This document shows positions 1-9,316 of a stretch of 64,000 nucleotides of DNA, in pieces. Positions within the stretch are counted from its first letter, which is position 1. Every line of letters starts with the position of its first letter. The DNA is from Streptococcus suis. GTDB taxonomy: Bacteria; Bacillota; Bacilli; Lactobacillales; Streptococcaceae. The DNA is taken from the NCBI RefSeq assembly GCF_902702775.1, contig NZ_LR738724.1:2125830-2189829 (forward strand). The letters are read 5' to 3'. A program made the position numbers and the translations under genes. The notes below the pieces were generated by a model. That model saw nothing but the letters and a program-made list of their open reading frames with translations, was not told the origin of the DNA and did no database searches.

Positions 1-824
1 CGATTGAGAAGAGCACAGGAGATAATGGTGGTAATTTCCACATGATTGAGCAAATAACTCCGTAAATCAGGATTGTCAATCGCCTCCAAGTCTAAATTGT
101 CTACCAAGATTCGATTGACTTTCAACTGCTGGTCAATTCGTTTAATCATGACAGACTCATTGACAGACTGGTCATTTCGCCCAATAAAGTAACGATAAAA
201 ATCTACTGGCAGATAGAACATCGTTTTCACAGCCTGTAAAGGGGTAAATACGAAAATATTATCCACATAGAAGGTATGTTCTGGTAGAACGAGACCAACC
301 TCGCGCAATAAATCTGTCCTGTAAATCAAGGAATGCATCATCATGTACTGACCCTTAGAAAAGGCACCCACATCCTCCCAGCCGAAAATACGGTTCTCAG
401 GTAGAGTGGATTGATAAGACATGGATTTTTTACGAGATTGTCCCTCTTTTTCGTAAACAAAGTTGGAGATAAAGGCATCAACTGGCGTATTTTCATCTTC
501 CAAAGCCTGCAAACTCTCCAGGATCTTCAAATAGGCCCTGGTATCGACCCAGTCATCTGAATCTACAACTTTAAAGTACTTCCCCTTGGCCTCACGTATC
601 CCTGTATTAACAGCTCCGCCATGGCCCTTATTGTCCTGATAGATGGCACGTACGTTTGAAAATTGATTCTCTAGTCCCTCTGCGATTTCCTGAGTCCGAT
701 CGGTCGACCCGTCGTTAATAATCAGAATTTCAACCTTGTCACCACCCATTACAAGGGAATGAACACAATAATGAAGGTAGGCCTCCGAATTATAACTCGG
801 AATGGCAATGCTTAGTAAGGTCAT
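1..824 (-). CDS. Family 2 glycosyltransferase, 3' end outside window
   Basis: The frame is open from the ATG at 824 to the window edge, so the C-terminus is missing. The start is preceded by a GGAGAG ribosome binding site. The N-terminus reads MTLLSIAIPSYNSEAYL, followed by the nucleotide-sugar motif IINDGSTDRT, then KGHGGAVNTG and the metal-binding VVDSDDW: a GT-A fold of family GT2. It should move a sugar from an activated donor to a lipid-linked or surface glycan at the inner membrane face; the sugar cannot be told. It follows the GH3 gene by 44 bp and is probably co-transcribed with it. Whether membrane segments follow, as in GtrB-type Und-P glucosyltransferases, is not visible. Confidence 0.85.
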   Translation of the reverse strand, partial: MTLLSIAIPSYNSEAYLHYCVHSLVMGGDKVEILIINDGSTDRTQEIAEGLENQFSNVRAIYQDNKGHGGAVNTGIREAKGKYFKVVDSDDWVDTRAYLKILESLQALEDENTPVDAFISNFVYEKEGQSRKKSMSYQSTLPENRIFGWEDVGAFSKGQYMMMHSLIYRTDLLREVGLVLPEHTFYVDNIFVFTPLQAVKTMFYLPVDFYRYFIGRNDQSVNESVMIKRIDQQLKVNRILVDNLDLEAIDNPDLRSYLLNHVEITTIISCALLN

Positions 825-868
825 CTTTCTCTCCATTTGACACAATTTGTTACTATTTTATCACATTT

Positions 869-3271
869 TCAGGAAAGTTGCTTTTGATATTTTCTTTTTG
901 CTTGATAGGCTCTCCATAGTTGGCCTAAACCCTTGAAAAAATGGCCATTGACAATAGTTAGAATCCCTTCTACCATCGGTAAATCGAGCATGTCACCTGT
1001 CATCTTTGCCATTGCCCTAAATGGCATATTATAAAGGAACAGCAGGTTCAAGTCAGGAGTCCCTTTCTGCTCTGCTTTTTTGAGTAAGCTAACCAATAGT
1101 TTATGCACACCACGTGCCAACCCACTCTTCGCAAATTGGAGTTTCAAAACTGGATCGTTCAGGCTCAGTTCTTGACCGATTTTCCAAGTTTCTTCTGGAA
1201 CTGGACGTCCAAGCAATTGTGCAAAATCCTGCGATGAAACAGCCTGTACTTGGGCTGTCAGATAAGTCGGAAGCTGTTCTGAAGCAGGAAATTGGTCTAC
1301 TGTACCATGCCGGGTAATCTCACCAACCAAGCGAATATCCTGACTACTTGCACCTACATACAAGAGATAATTTCCAGCCTCTACTTCAAATTGGCCTGTC
1401 TCTTTATTAAAATAACGGAAAGTATAGTCCTCAAAAGGGATAAAAATTTGTTTGGACTCGCCTGCTTTTATAAATACCTTTTTAAAGCCTTTTAATTCCT
1501 TTACAGGTCGGTAAATCTGACTGTCTTCTTTGCCTACGTACAATTGGATAATTTCAGCCCCATCTACCATTCCTGTATTAGTGATCGTGACGGAAATCCC
1601 TGATTCAGACACTTCTAATTGACTGTAAGAAAAGTCTGTGTAGGACAATCCATAGCCAAAGGGATACTTGACAACATTGTCAACACTTGTAAAGTAACGG
1701 TAGCCTACATAGAGAGATTCCTTATAGAGGGAAAAATCTCCCTCAGCAGGATAGCCCTCAGAAGACGGAACATCTGCCAATTCAACAGGATAGGTCTCGC
1801 TTAGTTTCCCTGACGGGTTGACACGACCTGTCAAGGTATCTAACATGGCTCTAGCGCCAGCTTCTCCTGATAGATAGCCGTGAAGAACCGCATCTACATC
1901 CACATCCCAATTCATATCCACAACCGAACCAGCTGATAGGACAACAACGATTTTTTTACCTGTCCCTACCAAGGCATTCAGTAAGGATACCTGGTTTTTG
2001 GGGAGACTTAGATGTTGACGATCCAAGCCTTCACTTTCACTCATTTCATCCAGCCCCATATAGTACAGAACAAGTTCTGCTTGGTTAGCAAGGTTGACAG
2101 CTTTGTCAACTAACTCCCCATCCTCTTTATCTACACGTTGATAGCCTTGTTCGTAACCAATGACATTTAATGGATAATCCGCGATACAATCCACTATTTT
2201 ATCTAATTGTCTTGTATTGATTAATGAAGAACCGGCTCCTTGATAGCGAGGATTTTGGGCAAATTCTCCGATGAGGGCTATTTTTATCTCGCTAGATAAG
2301 GGCAAGGTCTGATCCTTATTTTTTAATAATACAATGCTTTCAGCAGCAGCCTGACGGGCCAATTCATGTTGTGCAGAATAATCTACAGTTTGTTTTTCAG
2401 CATTGGCCAACTCCAAAACCACATCAAGTAGCTCATCCACGCGCTCATTCAATACCTGCTCGGACAGACGACCAGACTGAACAGCGTCAACAATTTCCTT
2501 TTGACCGACCTTTTTTGTACCTGGCATTTCCAAATGACTACCATTTTCAACACCGAGAACATGGTCATTGGAGCCTCCCCAATCCGATACGACAAAGCCA
2601 GTAAAGCCCCATTCGTCACGAAGAATGTCACGCAAGAGGCGCTTATCTTCATTAGCATAGACGCCGTTTATTTTGTTATATGCAGACATGATTGCCCTTG
2701 GATTTCCTTCACGCACAGCAATCTCAAATCCTGTCAGATAGAGCTCTCTCAGCGTGCGCTCATCAACAATGGAGTCTGAAGCCATACGGCGCAATTCCTG
2801 ACTGTTTACAGCTAAATGCTTAGGTGTTGCCGCAACACCTTGCGACTGCATTCCTCGAATCATTGCGGCCGCCAGTTTTCCCGCCTGATAAGGATCTTCT
2901 GAATAATACTCAAAGTTTCGACCACATAAGGGACTGCGCTTGATATTAAGCCCCGGACCCAAAATGACATTGACACCCAAGCTGTTTGCTTCTGCGCCGA
3001 GACCTTGTCCGACACGTTCAACCAGATCCACATCCCAAGAATTTGCCAAGGTAGCAGCTGTTGGGAAACAAGTTGCAGGGACAGACGCATTCAGCCCTAA
3101 GTGATCACCTTCACCTTCTTGCTTGCGAATTCCATGTGGCCCATCAGACAAAAAGATAGATGGAATTCCTTTTTCGGGGTAATCCTTGGTTTCCCAAACA
3201 GATTTTCCTGACATGAGTGCAGCTTTTTCTTCCAATGTTAAACGATTAATAATCTCCTGATGCTTCATCAT
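869..3271 (-). CDS. GH3 beta-glucosidase, cytoplasmic, classical domain order
   Basis: An 800-residue protein without signal peptide. The N-terminal GH3 barrel holds FLSDGPHG near residue 41, the substrate loop RSPLCGRNFEYYSEDP, KHLAVNSQE, and SDW with the nucleophile Asp near residue 230. The (alpha/beta)6 sandwich (ESIVLLKNKDQTLPL, IGEFAQ) and a C-terminal FnIII-like domain (VTITNTGMVDGAEIIQLYV) follow. This is the usual order of bacterial beta-glucosidases that release terminal glucose from beta-linked oligosaccharides. GAGG sits 5 bp before the ATG; a second ATG follows at once. It leads an operon with the GT2 gene. The promoter upstream carries a LytTR-type repeat pair and a cre-like site shared with the other GH3 gene. 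Substrate is unknown; beta-xylosidase activity is possible. Confidence 0.93.
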   Translation of the reverse strand: MMKHQEIINRLTLEEKAALMSGKSVWETKDYPEKGIPSIFLSDGPHGIRKQEGEGDHLGLNASVPATCFPTAATLANSWDVDLVERVGQGLGAEANSLGVNVILGPGLNIKRSPLCGRNFEYYSEDPYQAGKLAAAMIRGMQSQGVAATPKHLAVNSQELRRMASDSIVDERTLRELYLTGFEIAVREGNPRAIMSAYNKINGVYANEDKRLLRDILRDEWGFTGFVVSDWGGSNDHVLGVENGSHLEMPGTKKVGQKEIVDAVQSGRLSEQVLNERVDELLDVVLELANAEKQTVDYSAQHELARQAAAESIVLLKNKDQTLPLSSEIKIALIGEFAQNPRYQGAGSSLINTRQLDKIVDCIADYPLNVIGYEQGYQRVDKEDGELVDKAVNLANQAELVLYYMGLDEMSESEGLDRQHLSLPKNQVSLLNALVGTGKKIVVVLSAGSVVDMNWDVDVDAVLHGYLSGEAGARAMLDTLTGRVNPSGKLSETYPVELADVPSSEGYPAEGDFSLYKESLYVGYRYFTSVDNVVKYPFGYGLSYTDFSYSQLEVSESGISVTITNTGMVDGAEIIQLYVGKEDSQIYRPVKELKGFKKVFIKAGESKQIFIPFEDYTFRYFNKETGQFEVEAGNYLLYVGASSQDIRLVGEITRHGTVDQFPASEQLPTYLTAQVQAVSSQDFAQLLGRPVPEETWKIGQELSLNDPVLKLQFAKSGLARGVHKLLVSLLKKAEQKGTPDLNLLFLYNMPFRAMAKMTGDMLDLPMVEGILTIVNGHFFKGLGQLWRAYQAKRKYQKQLS

Positions 3272-3301
3272 CTTTTCCTCATTCTATTTCTTTACCACTA
3301 T

Positions 3302-3369
3302 CATATCAGACTAAAGGGGCAATTAAAACGCTTTCTTCATAATCTGTACGATTTTAGGCATAATCTGCT
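3302..3369 (-). promoter_or_regulatory. GH3 promoter with LytTR-type repeats and cre-like site
   Basis: On the minus strand CAGATTATG occurs at 3369-3361 and again at 3348-3340. The two copies are exactly 21 bp apart, the spacing of LytTR-regulator direct repeats (9-bp boxes, 12-bp spacer). A cre-like sequence TTAAAACGCTTTCT lies at 3325-3338 over the weak -35. The -10 TATGAT is at 3307-3302, 32 bp past the second box. The same architecture precedes the GH3 gene starting at 7059. Binding by the LytTR regulator at 7299 and by CcpA is inferred. Confidence 0.7.
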
Positions 3370-3370
3370 A

Positions 3371-3401
3371 CAAAAAACCTCCCCAGAAAATACTAGGGAG
3401 A
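3371..3401 (-). terminator. Terminator of the GH3-GtrA operon
   Basis: On the minus strand CTCCC (3400-3396) and GGGAG (3383-3379) form a stem with a 12-nt loop, followed by G and six T. It lies downstream of the GtrA gene and just before the promoter repeats of the next operon. Confidence 0.65.
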
Positions 3402-3417
3402 TCGCTCTTATTACTTC

Positions 3418-3631
3418 TTATACTCAATGAAAATAAAAATCAGGCTAGCTCCAACAGTCTGAGAATAGACTGTTGGAGGTGGGAGATAGGACGAACCTTG
3501 TTCGTTTCGATATGAGCAGATAGAACTCTGTCACTTTATTATTGTCAAGTGACAGGCTGGAAACCTCCACTGGAGCTTTCCACTCATCAAATCAAGTCAA
3601 CAACGGCTGAGTTTGATTTTCGAAGAGTATT
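3418..3631. repeat. BOX-like interspersed repeat element
   Basis: About 214 bp bounded by inverted ends: TATACTCAATGAAAAT at the left and ATTTTCGAAGAGTAT at the right, as in streptococcal BOX elements. Inside are several hairpins, for example CCAACAGTCT at 3451-3460 paired with AGACTGTTGG at 3467-3476, and GTCACTT paired with AAGTGAC around 3536-3552. The right end overlaps the stop codon of the GtrA gene by two bases. The boxA/B/C assignment is from memory of the family; the body diverges from the pneumococcal consensus. Confidence 0.65.
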
Positions 3632-4109
3632 ATTTCATGATTACAAACTTCATCATCGGATAGTTGACAGCCACTTGAACGAAAATATTGACCCAATTGG
3701 CTGCTGTCTGTGCCCAACCCAAACTCAAGCCCCATGATGTAAAAAGCTGAGTAGTATAAGGTGGTAGCACAATGGACAAAATTCCTGCAACTAGAACAGT
3801 TATGATATACCAATGGAGGGTTTTGGAAATATCATTTTCTGCACCAAATACCAACTTCCTTTGGACGATATAGTTGACAATCTGTGCCGCTACATAGGCC
3901 AATAAGAAGGAGAGAAAGCCGTTTAAACCGCCATTTTCTACGGAATAATGGAAGATGAACCAGTGAAATGGCTGACTTGACAAGGCTGTAAAGAGGAAAT
4001 TTGTCGACAACCAAAGAACACAGAAATTTGTAATGGTCGCTATGTTTGATAATACATTAAACTTGATAAATTCCCACAAGTCTGGGTGTTTAGCAATCCA
4101 TTCTTTCAT
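3630..4109 (-). CDS. GtrA-family membrane protein
   Basis: A 159-residue protein with four predicted membrane segments (around residues 17-37, 65-85, 97-117 and 130-150). The N-terminal FIKFNVLSNIATITNF and the NYIVQRKLVF motif after the second segment are typical of GtrA/DPMS-like proteins. Family members are thought to flip or handle undecaprenyl-phosphate-linked sugars during O-antigen, teichoic acid or polysaccharide glycosylation. It begins 37 bp after the membrane-anchored GH3 gene, so the two are probably one transcript. With the GT2 gene of the neighbouring operon it suggests a surface-glycan task; the pairing is an inference. Its stop codon lies in the edge of a BOX-like repeat. Confidence 0.82.
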   Translation of the reverse strand: MKEWIAKHPDLWEFIKFNVLSNIATITNFCVLWLSTNFLFTALSSQPFHWFIFHYSVENGGLNGFLSFLLAYVAAQIVNYIVQRKLVFGAENDISKTLHWYIITVLVAGILSIVLPPYTTQLFTSWGLSLGWAQTAANWVNIFVQVAVNYPMMKFVIMK

Positions 4110-4146
4110 ACGGTCTCCTTGAAGACAAGGGGGAAAGCCCCCCTTG

Positions 4147-7059
4147 TTATGCTGCGTTTTTTTCTTCTTTTTTCTTACCTGTCAACTTGACAAGACCGAA
4201 ACCTGTCAATCCGATTAGGGCAATATTGCTTGCTACTAAAGCTACAATCCACCATTTCGTTTTTGGTTTGTAGATGTCAAAGGCTGCAGAATGAGCAACG
4301 GTGTACAAGATATTTTTGCTTGCCTGACGAAGTGCTGCAACACCTTCTTCTGTACCTGTTGATGCTGCTGTAGGGAGGCTTCCCATAGGTGTCAACATGA
4401 GGTCACCACCATTGCGGATAGCCTGGTCTGGACTCATGTAATCCTTACCTGCAAAGTCTGTAATCACCATCCCTTTGAAGCCCCACTCGTCACGAAGGAC
4501 AGTATTCAAGAGGTCGCTATTACCCCCTGCCCAGAGGGTACCAATACGGTTAAAGGATGACATAATAGCAGTCGCTCCGCCTTCTTTTACAGGAATTTCA
4601 AAGGCTTTCAGATAGATTTCACGGATAGCTTGTTCATTAGACCATGTTGCAACACCATCACGGTTATCTTCTTGGTCATTGAGAGCAAAGTGTTTTGTGA
4701 AGGTATAGACTCCATTTTCCAGAGCTTTTGCTACCAGTGAGCTTGCCATTTTACCTGAAATCAGTGGATCTTCTGAATAGTACTCGAAGTTACGACCTGA
4801 AAATGGTGAGCGGTGGATGTTCACAGCTGGGGCATATAGACCAACGATACCATGTGCCAATGCCTCTTTGGCAAAAGCATCACCCATTTCTTCAGCCAAG
4901 TCAGTATTCCAAGTAGAAGCAACAACAACTTCTGAATTGTATTGAACACCTTTGATACCTTGGAAGATACCGTTAATACCAGCAGGGCCGTCCAAGTCAA
5001 CAACAGCTGGTTTATCAATTGATTTGACTGCTCCTGTTGCATAACCACCATAACCGATTAAGTTGACCATTTCGTCAATAGACATTTGAGCAACTAATTG
5101 TTCCCAACGCTCATCATCATAGTCTGCACCAATCAAATCAACCAAACGAAGTCCATTATCTTCTGTTGTTACTGTATCAATCGGTGTTTCTGAAGATTCG
5201 TCAATGCGGAAGTTCGAGCGATCAACCTCAGCAGCAATTTGCTCACTAGCTTCTTTATCTTTTGTACGTTCAGTTGGCAAAGTACTTTCCCAGTCCGCAC
5301 GGGTTACATACTTAACATCGCCAACAGCATATTCAAATGCATTAGTTACCTCAGCCTTGTCAGATGAACGTTGCTTCAAGACTTCCTTGCTGTCAACTGT
5401 GTAAGTTTCTGAGTCCAATACATCATGAGCATTATTCATGAGTTTGATCTGGTAGTCACCTTTATCCAATACATAGGCTTTTTCAGTCTTTTCATCGTAA
5501 GATGCCATGTCATCACGGTCGAAGGAAATTGTCATTTCTTCACTTTGTCCTGGTTCAAGTACATCTGTCTTGTCAAAGCCAGCCAAGACAACATGGGATT
5601 TTTCAATGCCACCTTCGGTATATGGAGCAGTGTAATAAACTTGTGCAACTTCTTTACCAGCTACATCACCAGTGTTAGTTACTTTGACATTGACCTCAAT
5701 CTTGTCACCATTTTCTTTCATACTGGTGATTTCTTGGTCAAATGTTGTATAGCTCAAACCGTAGCCAAATGGATATTGCACTGTTGCATCGTAGGCTGCC
5801 TCATCTACTTGACCAGTCGCGTTGTCAACAAAGCGAGTTTCATAGTAACGATAGCCTAGATAGATGCCTTCTTGGTAGTTAACAAATTTGTAGTTAAAGG
5901 TCTGAGGCTCTTTTGCTCCCCATGGAGTATCTTCATAAGTAATATTTGTATAAGAGAAGTCCCCTGTATTCCAGTAGGTTGGGTTGGTTTCCAAGTCATA
6001 GGCATAGGTATCGACCAAGCGACCAGACGGGTTGACATCTCCTGCCAAGACATTGGCTACACCGTTCAAACCAGTTGAACCTGGTCCTCCAATCCATAGA
6101 GCTGCATCGACACCTGCATCTTCCAAGAAGCCAAGTTCCATAGCATTTGAAGAGTTGACCAATACAACAACTTTGTCAAAGTTTTCAGTCACAGTTTTCA
6201 GCATAGCCTTCTCAACATCTTGAAGTTCAAGATAGTGCTTATCCTTGTCACCTTGTTGGTATTCTGCCATATTTTGTGGAAGGTCTGCACCCTCACCACC
6301 GTTACGAGAAATGACCAGCAAGGCTGTATCGGAGAAGTTCTTCGCGTTTGTTAGCAATTCATCTGTGTATTTGTCTTGAGTTGGCTCATAGATATTGTAA
6401 TCTCCACCATTAAGAGAGAAGATGTTAGTACCTTCTTTTTCTGGTAGGTTTTCTGTGTAGAAATCAGTCAATTCACTATTGACTTCAAAACCAGCATTTT
6501 CAAGACCTTGTTGCAGATTAACGTTTTTAGACTCATCCGCAGCACCTGAACCAGATCCTCCGTAAGTAATGGCTACAGAAGAAATACCAAAGACATTGAC
6601 CTTAGATGATTTTTCAAGCGGTAGGGTCTGATTTTTGTTTTCAAGCAAGACAGTGCCTTCTTCTTGAATAGTTGTTACCAAAGATTTAGAAACCTCTTCT
6701 GCCTCAGCTATTTTTGTCTCATCTGCATAAGACGGCGCAAAATAGGTGTCGATTACATTGACAAACATATTGACAGCATAGTTGGCACCAATGATTATTA
6801 CACCTAATAATGCCAAAAGTGAAGTAAAGATCTTTGATTTTTTGGAAACAAATGCCTTATTCTTCATACCTTTGTAAATATAGTATGCGAATAAAGCTAC
6901 GACTGCTAAGCTACCACATATTAAAACAGTCTTTGCAATCCCTGCTGCATCCCATGCTTGATAGGAACTGGCATAATCTTCCGCCGCAAATACCGTTACT
7001 CCGACATTTCCCATGAGAGTAACTAAACTTGCTAAACCAAGTTTTTTCCAAGCCTTCAT
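4147..7059 (-). CDS. Membrane-anchored GH3 beta-glucosidase with swapped domain order
   Basis: A 970-residue protein. The N-terminus has three hydrophobic segments (about 8-25, 42-60 and 80-100) and the C-terminus one more (WWIVALVASNIALIGLTGFG) before a lysine-rich tail, so the catalytic part is probably outside the cell and held at both ends. The GH3 sandwich domain comes first (EEGTVLLENKNQTLPL near 135, then GGSGSGAAD), then an FnIII-like domain (VNVKVTNTGDVAGKEVAQVYY near 460), and the barrel last, with VDLDGPAGIN, RSPFSGRNFEYYSEDP, KHFALNDQE and nucleophile Asp868 in VITDFAG. This reverses the order in the neighbouring GH3 enzyme. A GGAGG site precedes the ATG. It heads an operon with the GtrA gene; the promoter has LytTR-type repeats and a cre-like site. 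Confidence 0.9.
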   Translation of the reverse strand: MKAWKKLGLASLVTLMGNVGVTVFAAEDYASSYQAWDAAGIAKTVLICGSLAVVALFAYYIYKGMKNKAFVSKKSKIFTSLLALLGVIIIGANYAVNMFVNVIDTYFAPSYADETKIAEAEEVSKSLVTTIQEEGTVLLENKNQTLPLEKSSKVNVFGISSVAITYGGSGSGAADESKNVNLQQGLENAGFEVNSELTDFYTENLPEKEGTNIFSLNGGDYNIYEPTQDKYTDELLTNAKNFSDTALLVISRNGGEGADLPQNMAEYQQGDKDKHYLELQDVEKAMLKTVTENFDKVVVLVNSSNAMELGFLEDAGVDAALWIGGPGSTGLNGVANVLAGDVNPSGRLVDTYAYDLETNPTYWNTGDFSYTNITYEDTPWGAKEPQTFNYKFVNYQEGIYLGYRYYETRFVDNATGQVDEAAYDATVQYPFGYGLSYTTFDQEITSMKENGDKIEVNVKVTNTGDVAGKEVAQVYYTAPYTEGGIEKSHVVLAGFDKTDVLEPGQSEEMTISFDRDDMASYDEKTEKAYVLDKGDYQIKLMNNAHDVLDSETYTVDSKEVLKQRSSDKAEVTNAFEYAVGDVKYVTRADWESTLPTERTKDKEASEQIAAEVDRSNFRIDESSETPIDTVTTEDNGLRLVDLIGADYDDERWEQLVAQMSIDEMVNLIGYGGYATGAVKSIDKPAVVDLDGPAGINGIFQGIKGVQYNSEVVVASTWNTDLAEEMGDAFAKEALAHGIVGLYAPAVNIHRSPFSGRNFEYYSEDPLISGKMASSLVAKALENGVYTFTKHFALNDQEDNRDGVATWSNEQAIREIYLKAFEIPVKEGGATAIMSSFNRIGTLWAGGNSDLLNTVLRDEWGFKGMVITDFAGKDYMSPDQAIRNGGDLMLTPMGSLPTAASTGTEEGVAALRQASKNILYTVAHSAAFDIYKPKTKWWIVALVASNIALIGLTGFGLVKLTGKKKEEKNAA

Positions 7060-7116
7060 AAGACTTCCTCCTAAACGTTTCGGCTTTCATGTAAGCCTTT
7101 TCTTTTTCTTGAATCC

Positions 7117-7184
7117 ACTATATCAATTAACACACTCAATGAAAACCCTTTCTTCATAATCTGTCATTTAACCTTCATAATTTG
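7117..7184 (-). promoter_or_regulatory. Promoter of membrane GH3 operon with LytTR-type repeats and cre-like site
   Basis: On the minus strand CAAATTATG (7184-7176) and CAGATTATG (7163-7155) are 21 bp apart. The box closer to the gene runs into AAGAAAG-G-GTTTT as at 3339. A cre-like TGAAAACCCTTTCT lies at 7140-7153, with CC in place of the central CG. The -10 TATAGT (7122-7117) begins 32 bp after the second box, the same distance as in the first GH3 promoter. No good -35 is present, as expected for an activator-dependent promoter. Confidence 0.7.
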
Positions 7185-7298
7185 TAAATTGAGAAAAATA
7201 ATCCTACTCTTGCTATTTTATCATTTGATTTTTCTAAAATATAGCTAACAATTTCATTTTAATTTTGATATACTGATAGAAAATAAAAGGGGTACTTT

Positions 7299-8012
7299 AT
7301 GAAAATCGCGATTGTAGAAGATCAAAAAATCGAGCAAGATAGATTGTCCAATTACATCAAAACCTACTGCCAAAAAGCTGGGATTGCAGTGGAAATCAGC
7401 TGTTTTAATGACGGTCTCCATATCACTAGTGACTATCAAAAACAATTTGACCTGATTTACCTAGATGTCGAGATGGAGATTATGGACGGGATGACCACTG
7501 CTCAAAAGATTCGGTCTGTGGATAAAGATGTTCTCATCGTCTTTGTGACCAATCATTCCCATGTCGCTATTCAGGGTTATTCTGTTGAGGCCATTGATTT
7601 TCTTCTCAAACCACTGAGCTCCTTTGTCTTTGAGGAACATTTTAAAAAAATTCTGAGAAAATTACCCGATAGTCAAGAGAAACAAAGTTTGTATATAAAA
7701 AGCAAGCAATCCACTGTAAAACTCTATCAAGAAGATATTGTTTACCTAGAAAGTCAAGGACATCAGGTTCATATCTACACAGTTGACGGTGGCCTAACGA
7801 TTACCCATAATAGTCTCAAGAATCTCGAAGCCATGTTAGACAGTAAATTGTTTGTACGGGCCCACTCCGCCTATATCATCAATTTGTCCCACGTTCAAAA
7901 AGTGGAAGGTAGCCTTGTTTACGTCACAAATACAGCCTTGCCGATTAGCCGCCCAAGAAAAAAAGAATTTATGACAGCTCTAACCAACTTCATCGGAGAT
8001 AGCCTACTATGA
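7299..8012 (+). CDS. LytTR-family response regulator
   Basis: A 237-residue protein with a receiver domain (EDQ at 7-9; phospho-acceptor Asp56 in LIYLDVEME; conserved Lys in LLKPLSS) and a C-terminal LytTR DNA-binding domain (IVYLESQGHQVHIYT, LFVRAHSAYIINLSHV). This is the AgrA/ComE/BlpR class, which binds 9-bp direct repeats spaced 12 bp. Such repeats stand before both nearby GH3 genes, making them its likely targets. The start has an AAAAGGGG site; an extended -10 TGATATACT lies at 7266-7274. Its stop overlaps the start of the kinase gene, so the pair is co-translated. It diverges from the membrane GH3 operon. Confidence 0.92.
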   Translation: MKIAIVEDQKIEQDRLSNYIKTYCQKAGIAVEISCFNDGLHITSDYQKQFDLIYLDVEMEIMDGMTTAQKIRSVDKDVLIVFVTNHSHVAIQGYSVEAIDFLLKPLSSFVFEEHFKKILRKLPDSQEKQSLYIKSKQSTVKLYQEDIVYLESQGHQVHIYTVDGGLTITHNSLKNLEAMLDSKLFVRAHSAYIINLSHVQKVEGSLVYVTNTALPISRPRKKEFMTALTNFIGDSLL

Positions 8013-9316
8013 TCAATTTCCCTGATATTCCACGTTTCTATTCTGCTCTAACAGAAAGCTTGGCCTGCCTACTGGTCTGTTCCTCACTTGTTTTGTCTGA
8101 AAAATGGTCACACAAACAGTTCCGTATCTTCCTGATTTTCCTCATACAAATCTTACTTCAACTTGTAGCTGGCAAACTCCCTTTGCTTTTTTGGACTGTG
8201 GGAATGGGCATCAATATCGCTTGGATGTTTGTTTCCATTCGATTGCTTGGAGTTATCCACAAGAGGACAAGTCTCTATTTGACAGCAAAAGCCTTTATTA
8301 TTGCCGAATTAGTAGCCTCCATTACTTGGCATCTCTACTGTTTGACGATTTATCAACAACCTGTGGATAACTTGTGGACACAGGGGTTATTTCTGTTGAT
8401 AACTTCTCTACTTTCTTACTGGCTCATCTATCTACAAGATAAAAAAGTTTACTTAGAAGAATTGGATAAATTCATTGAGCAGCGAGATGTGACGGTAGCT
8501 GTCTTTACAACCTTATCTATCTTTGTTCTTAGTAATATTGGTTTCATCCTCTCAGGCACGCGCCAATTTCAAGACTCGACCAGCATTTTCATCCTCCGGA
8601 CAACCGTCAATCTCTCTGGTCTTCTGCTCCTATTTACCCAAGAATCTCAACAATACGATCGCTACTTACGGCAGGAATTGACTTCTATCAATAATATGTT
8701 TCAACTTCAATACAAGCAATACCAAGCCTATCGTGAAAACAGTGAGATTCTTGACCGTAAGGTCCATGATTTAAAGCATCAACTGGCCATCATTCAGCAA
8801 GAATCGGATAAAACAAAAAAGGAGAAATACCTGGAGGAAATGAGCGAGGTGATCCAGACCCTTGATGCCAAGATTGAAACAGGAAATCCCGTTCTAGATA
8901 CCATTCTCAGCCAGAAAAATTATTACTGTCTGCAAAATGGAATCAACTTTACCTGTATTGTTCAGGGAGAACCCCTTCATTTTATGGATGTAATGGATAT
9001 TTCAGCTCTGTTTGGAAATGCCATTGACAATGCCATCGAGGCTGTTGAAAAAATAGATAACCCTGAACAACGCTTGATTACTTTAAAGGTTGCCAGCCAT
9101 CAGCAATTTCTCATCATTCGATTAGACAACTACGATACCTCTTCACTAGACTTATCCACAGGACAGCTCCCTGAAACCTCAAAAACAAATAAGGACTACC
9201 ACGGATTCGGTCTTAAGAGTATGGAGTATGTTGCCAATAAATACGGTGGCAGTCTCACACTTAGCAAGGAAGATAATTGGGTGCAACTAAAAATCATTCT
9301 CCCCTTACAAGCATAG
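8009..9316 (+). CDS. GHKL-type sensor histidine kinase (AgrC/ComD class)
   Basis: A 435-residue protein. About 210 residues of hydrophobic segments (six or seven helices) precede a coiled linker and a GHKL kinase core: phospho-acceptor His253 in KVHDLKHQLAII, N box FGNAIDNAIEAVE, G box GFGLKSMEYVANKYGGSL. The kinase partners the LytTR regulator, whose gene overlaps it by 4 bp. Relatives often sense secreted peptides, but no peptide precursor or exporter gene lies beside it, so the signal could be a sugar or wall fragment. A bidirectional terminator follows immediately. The gene holds three perfect DnaA boxes, which its function does not explain. Confidence 0.92.
   Translation: MINFPDIPRFYSALTESLACLLVCSSLVLSEKWSHKQFRIFLIFLIQILLQLVAGKLPLLFWTVGMGINIAWMFVSIRLLGVIHKRTSLYLTAKAFIIAELVASITWHLYCLTIYQQPVDNLWTQGLFLLITSLLSYWLIYLQDKKVYLEELDKFIEQRDVTVAVFTTLSIFVLSNIGFILSGTRQFQDSTSIFILRTTVNLSGLLLLFTQESQQYDRYLRQELTSINNMFQLQYKQYQAYRENSEILDRKVHDLKHQLAIIQQESDKTKKEKYLEEMSEVIQTLDAKIETGNPVLDTILSQKNYYCLQNGINFTCIVQGEPLHFMDVMDISALFGNAIDNAIEAVEKIDNPEQRLITLKVASHQQFLIIRLDNYDTSSLDLSTGQLPETSKTNKDYHGFGLKSMEYVANKYGGSLTLSKEDNWVQLKIILPLQA
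8253..9160. promoter_or_regulatory. Cluster of three perfect DnaA boxes inside the kinase gene
   Basis: TTATCCACA at 8253-8261, its complement TGTGGATAA at 8362-8370, and TTATCCACA at 9152-9160. A near match TGTGGACAC follows the second box at 8374. Three perfect 9-mers within 0.9 kb is more than chance predicts in a 64-kb window. A DnaA-titration role is speculative. Confidence 0.4.

Follow-up and report, generated by a model that had tools for sequence, protein, structure and literature searches.

Two-component systems with LytTR response regulators have been described chiefly in the context of quorum sensing, bacteriocins and virulence. GtrA-based lipid-linked sugar systems combine a GtrB-like GT2 glycosyltransferase that has membrane helices with GtrA and a membrane transferase. 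Here we describe a locus in which a LytTR two-component system adjoins genes for two family GH3 glycosidases, a GtrA protein and a GT2 glycosyltransferase. It lies in a 64,000-nucleotide stretch of the Streptococcus suis genome (contig NZ_LR738724.1, positions 2,125,830 to 2,189,829 of the forward strand), which we call the window and number from its first letter. The minus-strand gene order is GH3tm (the membrane-anchored GH3) and gtrA, a terminator-like hairpin, then GH3a (the second GH3) and GT2; the regulator and GHKL kinase genes are divergent from GH3tm. A pair of 9-bp boxes heads each of the two minus-strand units, and a LytTR regulon confined to this one locus is well supported by the comparisons below. 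As in the GtrA-based systems, GT2 and GtrA are predicted to be co-regulated here. The module differs from those systems in that no hydrophobic segment was found in its GT2 by our own scan, and in that a surface GH3 is present instead of the third component; no third transferase was found among the nine proteins scanned at the locus.

AgrA/ComE-type LytTR regulators and the LytTR regulatory systems (LRS) HdrR and BrsR, as covered by the available part of PMC6193735, have in common with our module a LytTR domain and 9-12-9 repeats about 10 bp from the -35. Compared with these, the targets in the module are GH3, GtrA and GT2 genes, and no box pair was seen at the regulator's own operon. The same source gives the LRS a membrane inhibitor, whereas the regulator here carries a receiver domain and has a histidine kinase as its partner; we therefore rejected a classification of the module as an LRS. 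The comCDE promoter of Streptococcus pneumoniae provides a precedent for CcpA acting on a LytTR-driven promoter (PMC10269683, in part), which is the combination we propose for the module. It differs in serving competence genes and in having atypical catabolite-responsive element (cre) sites, according to the same part of that paper.

The region itself has probably been listed before. A hybridisation study from 2011 includes a region of difference of S. suis, RD38 (SSU1927-SSU1931; 8.444 kb; 41.6% GC; present in 44 of 55 strains), whose content is given as "beta-glucosidase, two-component regulatory system" (PMC3142484, in part). The corresponding region measures 8448 bp here and 8445 bp in another genome of our set, G246, which also shares the GC content of 41.6%; the match was made by size and content, not by alignment to strain P1/7. 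The entry describes RD38 as variable, and that part of the paper mentions no boxes, regulon or gene exchange. An earlier reading of the window made from its letters alone (the sequence-only reading) had known of no description of such a system. This has to be narrowed, as a matching region is on record, although its listing describes no regulation. We found no account of the box code or of the regulon in the open-licence literature, which is not proof of their absence from print, and the main text of a study of the S. suis sugar response (PMC3958366) contains none of the gene words of this locus.

The box pair and the units it heads

Both box promoters are on the minus strand. The GH3a promoter carries CAGATTATG as box 1 (3359..3367) and again as box 2 (3338..3346), followed by the gap AAGAAAGCG and the -35 TTTTAA (together 3323..3337), a stretch that holds the conserved cre-like core AAANCGNTTT. 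Its -10, TATGAT (3300..3305), is 17 bp from the -35 and 32 bp from box 2. At the GH3tm promoter, box 1 is CAAATTATG (7176..7184) and box 2 is CAGATTATG (7155..7163); the gap AAGAAAGGG and the -35 TTTTCA (7140..7154) are cre-like without the CG core, and the -10 is TATAGT (7117..7122). The layout common to both, read 5' to 3', is CARATTATG, 12 bp, CAGATTATG, AAGAAAGNG, TTTTNA, 17 bp, TATNNT, with direct repeats at a period of 21 bp and 32 bp between box 2 and the -10 in each case. The sequence-only reading had picked out these repeats and the exact 32-bp distance, at coordinates that agree with ours to within 2 bp. The better copies of the boxes fit the general LytTR consensus at about 8 of 9 positions. 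The divergent gene at 7299, which had been assigned to a LytTR regulator, indeed codes for a receiver-LytTR protein, and the gene behind it for a GHKL kinase.

In the whole 2.19-Mb genome, the pair matches without mismatch only at the GH3a and GH3tm promoters. Three more matches appear at 3 mismatches (1 with the reversed control), and one of these, at the GH3tm promoter, is an overlapping third repeat of degenerate sequence. We rejected this third repeat as part of the element; it is absent in locus L155, whose upstream DNA differs (L and G numbers are our handles for loci and genomes). The likeness of two promoters in one genome could come from a recent duplication of one upstream region rather than from a regulatory code. 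We regard this as highly improbable, because only the boxes, the gap, the -35 and the spacings are common to the two, whereas the flanks and both spacers (12 and 17 bp) are different. Moreover, in three GtrA promoters of related loci another stretch, TAAAAACGC, comes after the boxes, and genes inside operons (L153, L141) carry no pair.

We surveyed 284 Streptococcus genomes with a pair query that included AAGAAAGNG and allowed up to 3 mismatches. The pair was found in 20 genomes at 37 sites, 36 of them in the module, and the reversed control matched in 1 genome. Full-length regulator orthologues (at least 62% identity) are present in 19 genomes; the next matches are a truncated remnant in G247 and paralogues of at most 35% identity. 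Every genome with an intact orthologue carries the pair (19/19), against 1 of the 265 others (Fisher p ~1e-28, shared descent ignored). This lone exception, G078, has a single match with 3 mismatches and no module gene within the 18.8 kb read around it. Because LytTR regulators in general are more widespread, with a match at E <= 1e-15 in 98 of the 284 genomes, we take the box pair to be tied to this orthologue. A search for the membrane GH3 protein at E <= 1e-100 gave matches in 17 genomes, each of them one of the 20 pair carriers; the remaining two with the module, G057 and G177, have divergent GH3tm genes. In G247 (L169, about 8558-9154), a single deletion has brought the latter half of the regulator region up against the end of GH3a; it removed half of the regulator, both box promoters, GH3tm, gtrA and most of GH3a, and left the kinase and GT2. 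Conservation of the repeats in orthologous promoters, which the sequence-only reading had made the measure of its proposal, is thus what we found. As a separate observation, G083 has two GH3tm-gtrA copies (L148:8051-15387), each with its own box pair, and one of its GH3tm genes is split into two frames.

The boxes were then placed relative to gene starts in 19 loci (the window and L141-L159 without L147), again at up to 3 mismatches. The pair stands at 39 of 40 transcription-unit starts, made up of 19/19 first module genes and 20/21 later genes that begin at least 139 bp behind their predecessor. It is absent from all 39 genes that begin no more than 135 bp behind their predecessor, 9 of which reach 4 mismatches. 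The boxes therefore follow transcription units, not genes. One pair heads the run GtrA-GH3tm-GH3a-GT2 in L141, and one heads GH3tm-GtrA-GH3a in L153; GtrA has a pair of its own in L144, L145 and L149, where it starts 156-179 bp behind GH3tm. All 39 promoters (19 GH3tm, 16 GH3a, 4 GtrA) align without gaps. In 36 of them, box 2 is followed at 32 bp by a TANNNT -10; in 3 GtrA promoters this -10 is one base closer. When the 9-mer is read as ACAGATTAT, the spacing becomes 9-12-9 and the -35 follows after 10 bp, as has been reported for LytTR regulators (PMC6193735, in part). The comparisons support the box pair as a LytTR-type element tied to the adjacent regulator. A code this strict makes the regulon readable from sequence.

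Relatives of GH3tm were collected from a wider range of bacteria (79 loci from the best 80 of 204 candidates), and the regulator, kinase, GH3a, GtrA and GT2 recur around it in these loci. Among the 69 non-Streptococcus loci, a count without L010, L012, L040, L042, L063 and the other Streptococcus loci, the kinase family is a neighbour in 37, the regulator in 35, GH3a in 23, GtrA in 17 and GT2 in 7; among all other families, the two highest counts are 8 and 7. For GH3tm with hydrophobic segments at either end and 4 kb or more of flanking DNA on each side, a regulator lies within 6 kb in 17 of 28 cases. We also counted 21-bp repeats upstream of module genes, excluding the S. suis locus L010, duplicates and three Streptococcus paralogue loci. 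At 9 of 10 matching bases, such a repeat occurs in 12 of 86 unique regions from non-Streptococcus loci with the regulator, compared with a mean of 1.9 and a maximum of 8 over 39 other periods, and in 1 of 45 regions from loci without it. At 8 of 10 bases, the loci with the regulator give 26 of 86 against a mean of 10.6. The boxes of Oceanobacillus and Listeria resemble variants of CAGTTNATG or CAAATTATG, and the resemblance is weaker in Halolactibacillus and a Ruminococcus. Thus, the predicted partnership of a two-component system with a GH3 protein recurs in other Bacillota and in Actinomycetota.

Five further Streptococcus GH3tm genes (L160, L161, L162, L170 and L171) each adjoin a LytTR two-component system of their own, whose regulator is 29-35% identical to that of the window. 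L162 and L170 share another box word, of the TTACGACAG type, at the 21-bp period (exact in L162, imperfect in L170), and no repeat was recognised at the GH3tm promoters of L160 or L161. The GH3tm gene of L171 looks broken.

Proposed control by the LytTR regulator and CcpA

We propose, with a probability of roughly 0.8, that the kinase-regulator pair turns on the GH3, GtrA and GT2 units of this one locus through the box pairs, with CcpA as a damping input. The GHKL kinase would sense a signal and phosphorylate the LytTR regulator, which would bind both 9-bp repeats on the same face of the helix, directly upstream of the weak -35, and recruit RNA polymerase. Every transcription unit of the locus would be turned on in this way: GH3tm-GtrA and GH3a-GT2 here and, in other species, the single operon or the separate GtrA unit found there. 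CcpA would probably damp GH3a, as well as GtrA at those loci that give it a promoter of its own, and might damp GH3tm more weakly. The support for this proposal is drawn from sequence: the positions, conservation and geometry of the boxes, their co-occurrence with the regulator, their specificity for unit starts, the gene content, and the intact catalytic and phosphotransfer residues. The candidate regulon of the sequence-only reading therefore stands in so far as a LytTR-type pair tied to the regulator heads both GH3tm-GtrA and GH3a-GT2; that the regulator binds the boxes and that the kinase drives activation of the genes is what we infer.

Several points weigh against this proposal. Kinship among the genomes inflates the co-occurrence counts. 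At the sole unit start that was missed, that of GH3a in L150, the pair has decayed to 4 mismatches. The 135/139-bp boundary was chosen after the table had been seen, and the 39 entries inside units include two that are only the second half of a split GH3tm gene. In the wider collection, loci without the regulator are also above average at 8 of 10 bases (11 of 45 regions, against a mean of 6.0 and 14 for the largest other period). Finally, no gene for a signal molecule or pheromone turned up, though no systematic search for one was made.

The regulator might instead bind the boxes and mainly repress, or the boxes might serve another LytTR protein. The sign of regulation is not proven by sequence, and the genome (2,189,829 bases) has two LytTR genes. 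We nevertheless consider both versions unlikely: the site lies upstream of a weak -35, an activator position for LytTR regulators (PMC6193735, in part), and does not cover the -10, while the second LytTR gene is far from the module and the pair tracks the module regulator in 19 of 19 genomes. That second gene (L163:8686-9174) is short (162 aa as listed) and is next to a membrane-protein gene, together resembling an LRS pair.

The cre-like stretch over the weak -35, noted in the sequence-only reading, is real and conserved. The two promoters of the window differ from the cre consensus WTGNAANCGNWNNCW at 1 position on the plus strand and at 2 on the minus strand. Across the 64 kb and both strands, 27 places lie within 1 mismatch of this consensus and 402 within 2, and the stretch overlaps the 10-bp gap and the -35 that any LytTR promoter has anyway. 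On the strand opposite to the gene, 1 mismatch is seen at 14/16 GH3a and 13/19 GH3tm promoters. The AAANCGNTTT core is found at 16/16 GH3a, 3/4 GtrA and 0/19 GH3tm promoters, and its copy at the GH3a promoter is the sole occurrence in the window (it is a palindrome and was counted on both strands). At the GH3tm promoter of the window, the one cre mismatch falls in the CG core. All four of the paralogous Streptococcus GH3tm promoters considered here (L160, L161, L162 and L170; L171 is outside this set) have a cre with at most 1 mismatch, and two of these are perfect and placed between the repeats and the -10. In the upstream regions of 14 chosen non-Streptococcus loci, scanned on one strand, 7 have a cre with at most 1 mismatch and one, in Listeria floridensis, is perfect.

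We conclude that a CcpA input to this family is plausible, good at GH3a and GtrA and weak or absent at GH3tm. CcpA control of both GH3 genes, as first suggested, fits the 1-mismatch cre at both promoters but not the missing CG core at GH3tm, and the action of CcpA at either is a prediction. The same cre matches, at both window promoters and at the four paralogous ones, would also suit a scheme in which CcpA is the main regulator and the repeats carry little weight. This seems very unlikely to us, given that the 9-mers and their spacing are conserved as much as the cre-like stretch, that the CG core is absent at 19/19 GH3tm promoters, and that cre alone leaves the co-occurrence with a LytTR regulator unexplained.

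Exchange of the membrane GH3 gene

We compared the GH3tm gene with its neighbours in related genomes. In S. suis 10581 (L010), identity to the window is 99% for the regulator, 97% for the kinase, 98% for GT2, 97% for GtrA, 94% for GH3a and 90% for GH3tm. Five S. suis-like genomes have GH3tm neighbours that are 94-99% identical to those of the window, and their GH3tm proteins range (best BLAST stretch) from 90% (L154, L157) through 63% (L158) to 39% (L155) and 37% (L146). The borders of the divergent segments are close to the ends of the gene. In L146, the DNA is 95% identical up to codon 6 of GH3tm, identity is then lost save for short patches, and it is back 11 bp before gtrA. In L155, identity stops 7 bp before the GH3tm start and resumes 10 codons before its stop.

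The genes in this slot have different nearest relatives: Konateibacter for L146 (57%), the L160/L161 paralogues for L155 (75-76%), and Faecalicatena and Olsenella for the GH3tm of L151 (54-57%). In a tree of 44 proteins, built with a quick method under LG+G4, a single origin of the 17 module GH3tm rows is rejected (approximately unbiased test, p 1.6e-52), and at least 4 label changes are needed. This tree was made without L143, which is nearly identical to L142, without the split GH3tm genes of L141 and L148, and without the paralogues L170 and L171. The replaced genes retain the box promoter. Thus, the alignments and the tree indicate at least three replacements of GH3tm by distant members of the family, with the promoter and the neighbours left in place. 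Our most surprising finding is that the promoter is kept as well as the gene.

A tentative explanation, which we favour less than its being wrong, is that the locus is a regulated exchange slot. The LytTR sensor, the box promoter and the GtrA/GH3a/GT2 core would be fixed, and ancient lineages of surface GH3 would be inserted almost codon-exactly between the boxes and gtrA, allowing strains to alter the specificity of a surface glycosidase without altering its control. Such a change might be a response to variation in glycans, to glycosides of host or plant origin, or to pressure from phages. Natural enzyme swaps behind an unchanged promoter are ready-made experiments on the purpose of enzyme specificity.

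Gene products and possible function

The response regulator (7299..8012, plus strand; 237 aa) combines a receiver and a LytTR DNA-binding domain by profile matches (Response_reg 54.8 bits, cut-off 30.2; LytTR 62.0 bits, cut-off 22.6), and its phospho-acceptor Asp56 is kept in 19/19 orthologues. The adjoining gene (8009..9316, plus strand) encodes a sensor histidine kinase of 435 aa with a multi-helix N-terminus and a GHKL ATPase domain (94.2 bits); His253 is present in 19/19 orthologues. A candidate promoter for this operon (CTAACA, 18 bp, TATACT; 7245..7274, plus strand) is a consensus match only.

GH3tm (4147..7059, minus strand) is the exchanged gene and encodes a membrane-anchored GH3 protein of 970 aa with a permuted domain order. 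It has GH3 domains and aligns to solved GH3 proteins called beta-glucosidase, its closest solved relatives. D868, which we take to be the nucleophile, is present in 103 of 103 aligned sequences, and E256, presumably the acid/base, in 102 of 103 (some of these sequences are near-duplicates). Its AlphaFold model has a mean predicted local distance difference test score of 71.4, with 195 residues below 50. Because lysine-rich stretches flank the hydrophobic segments, positive-inside reasoning places the catalytic part probably outside the cell in the predicted topology. The gtrA gene (3630..4109, minus strand) encodes a GtrA-family membrane protein of 159 aa (33.3 bits, cut-off 26.1). GH3a (869..3271, minus strand; 800 aa) is a GH3 without a hydrophobic segment and is predicted to be cytoplasmic. 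The window edge cuts the GT2 gene (1..845, minus strand), which is whole at L164:11641-12675 (344 aa).

GtrA and GT2 suggest lipid-linked sugar transfer, and no sugar transporter was found among the module and neighbour proteins scanned. Together, the products suggest a set that handles a surface glycan or glycoside: a membrane-anchored GH3 whose catalytic part is probably outside, GtrA in the membrane, and a GH3 and a GT2 inside. A LytTR system tied to a membrane-anchored GH3 with GtrA and GT2 partners, in Bacillota and Actinomycetota, would point to an uncharacterised system that acts on a sensed glycan.

The hairpin that parts the two units (3376..3403, minus strand) lies between gtrA and the GH3a promoter and was identified by consensus scan only. 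Between gtrA and the GH3a boxes there is also a stretch of about 210 bp (3421-3630) with a perfect 12-bp inverted repeat inside; it is missing from L146, L155, L157 and L158 and looks like a small inserted element. In L155, a gene for a 409-aa protein (L155:5083-6312) sits between the regulator and the box promoter, and its HPFxDGNGR motif is, we presume, Fic-like.

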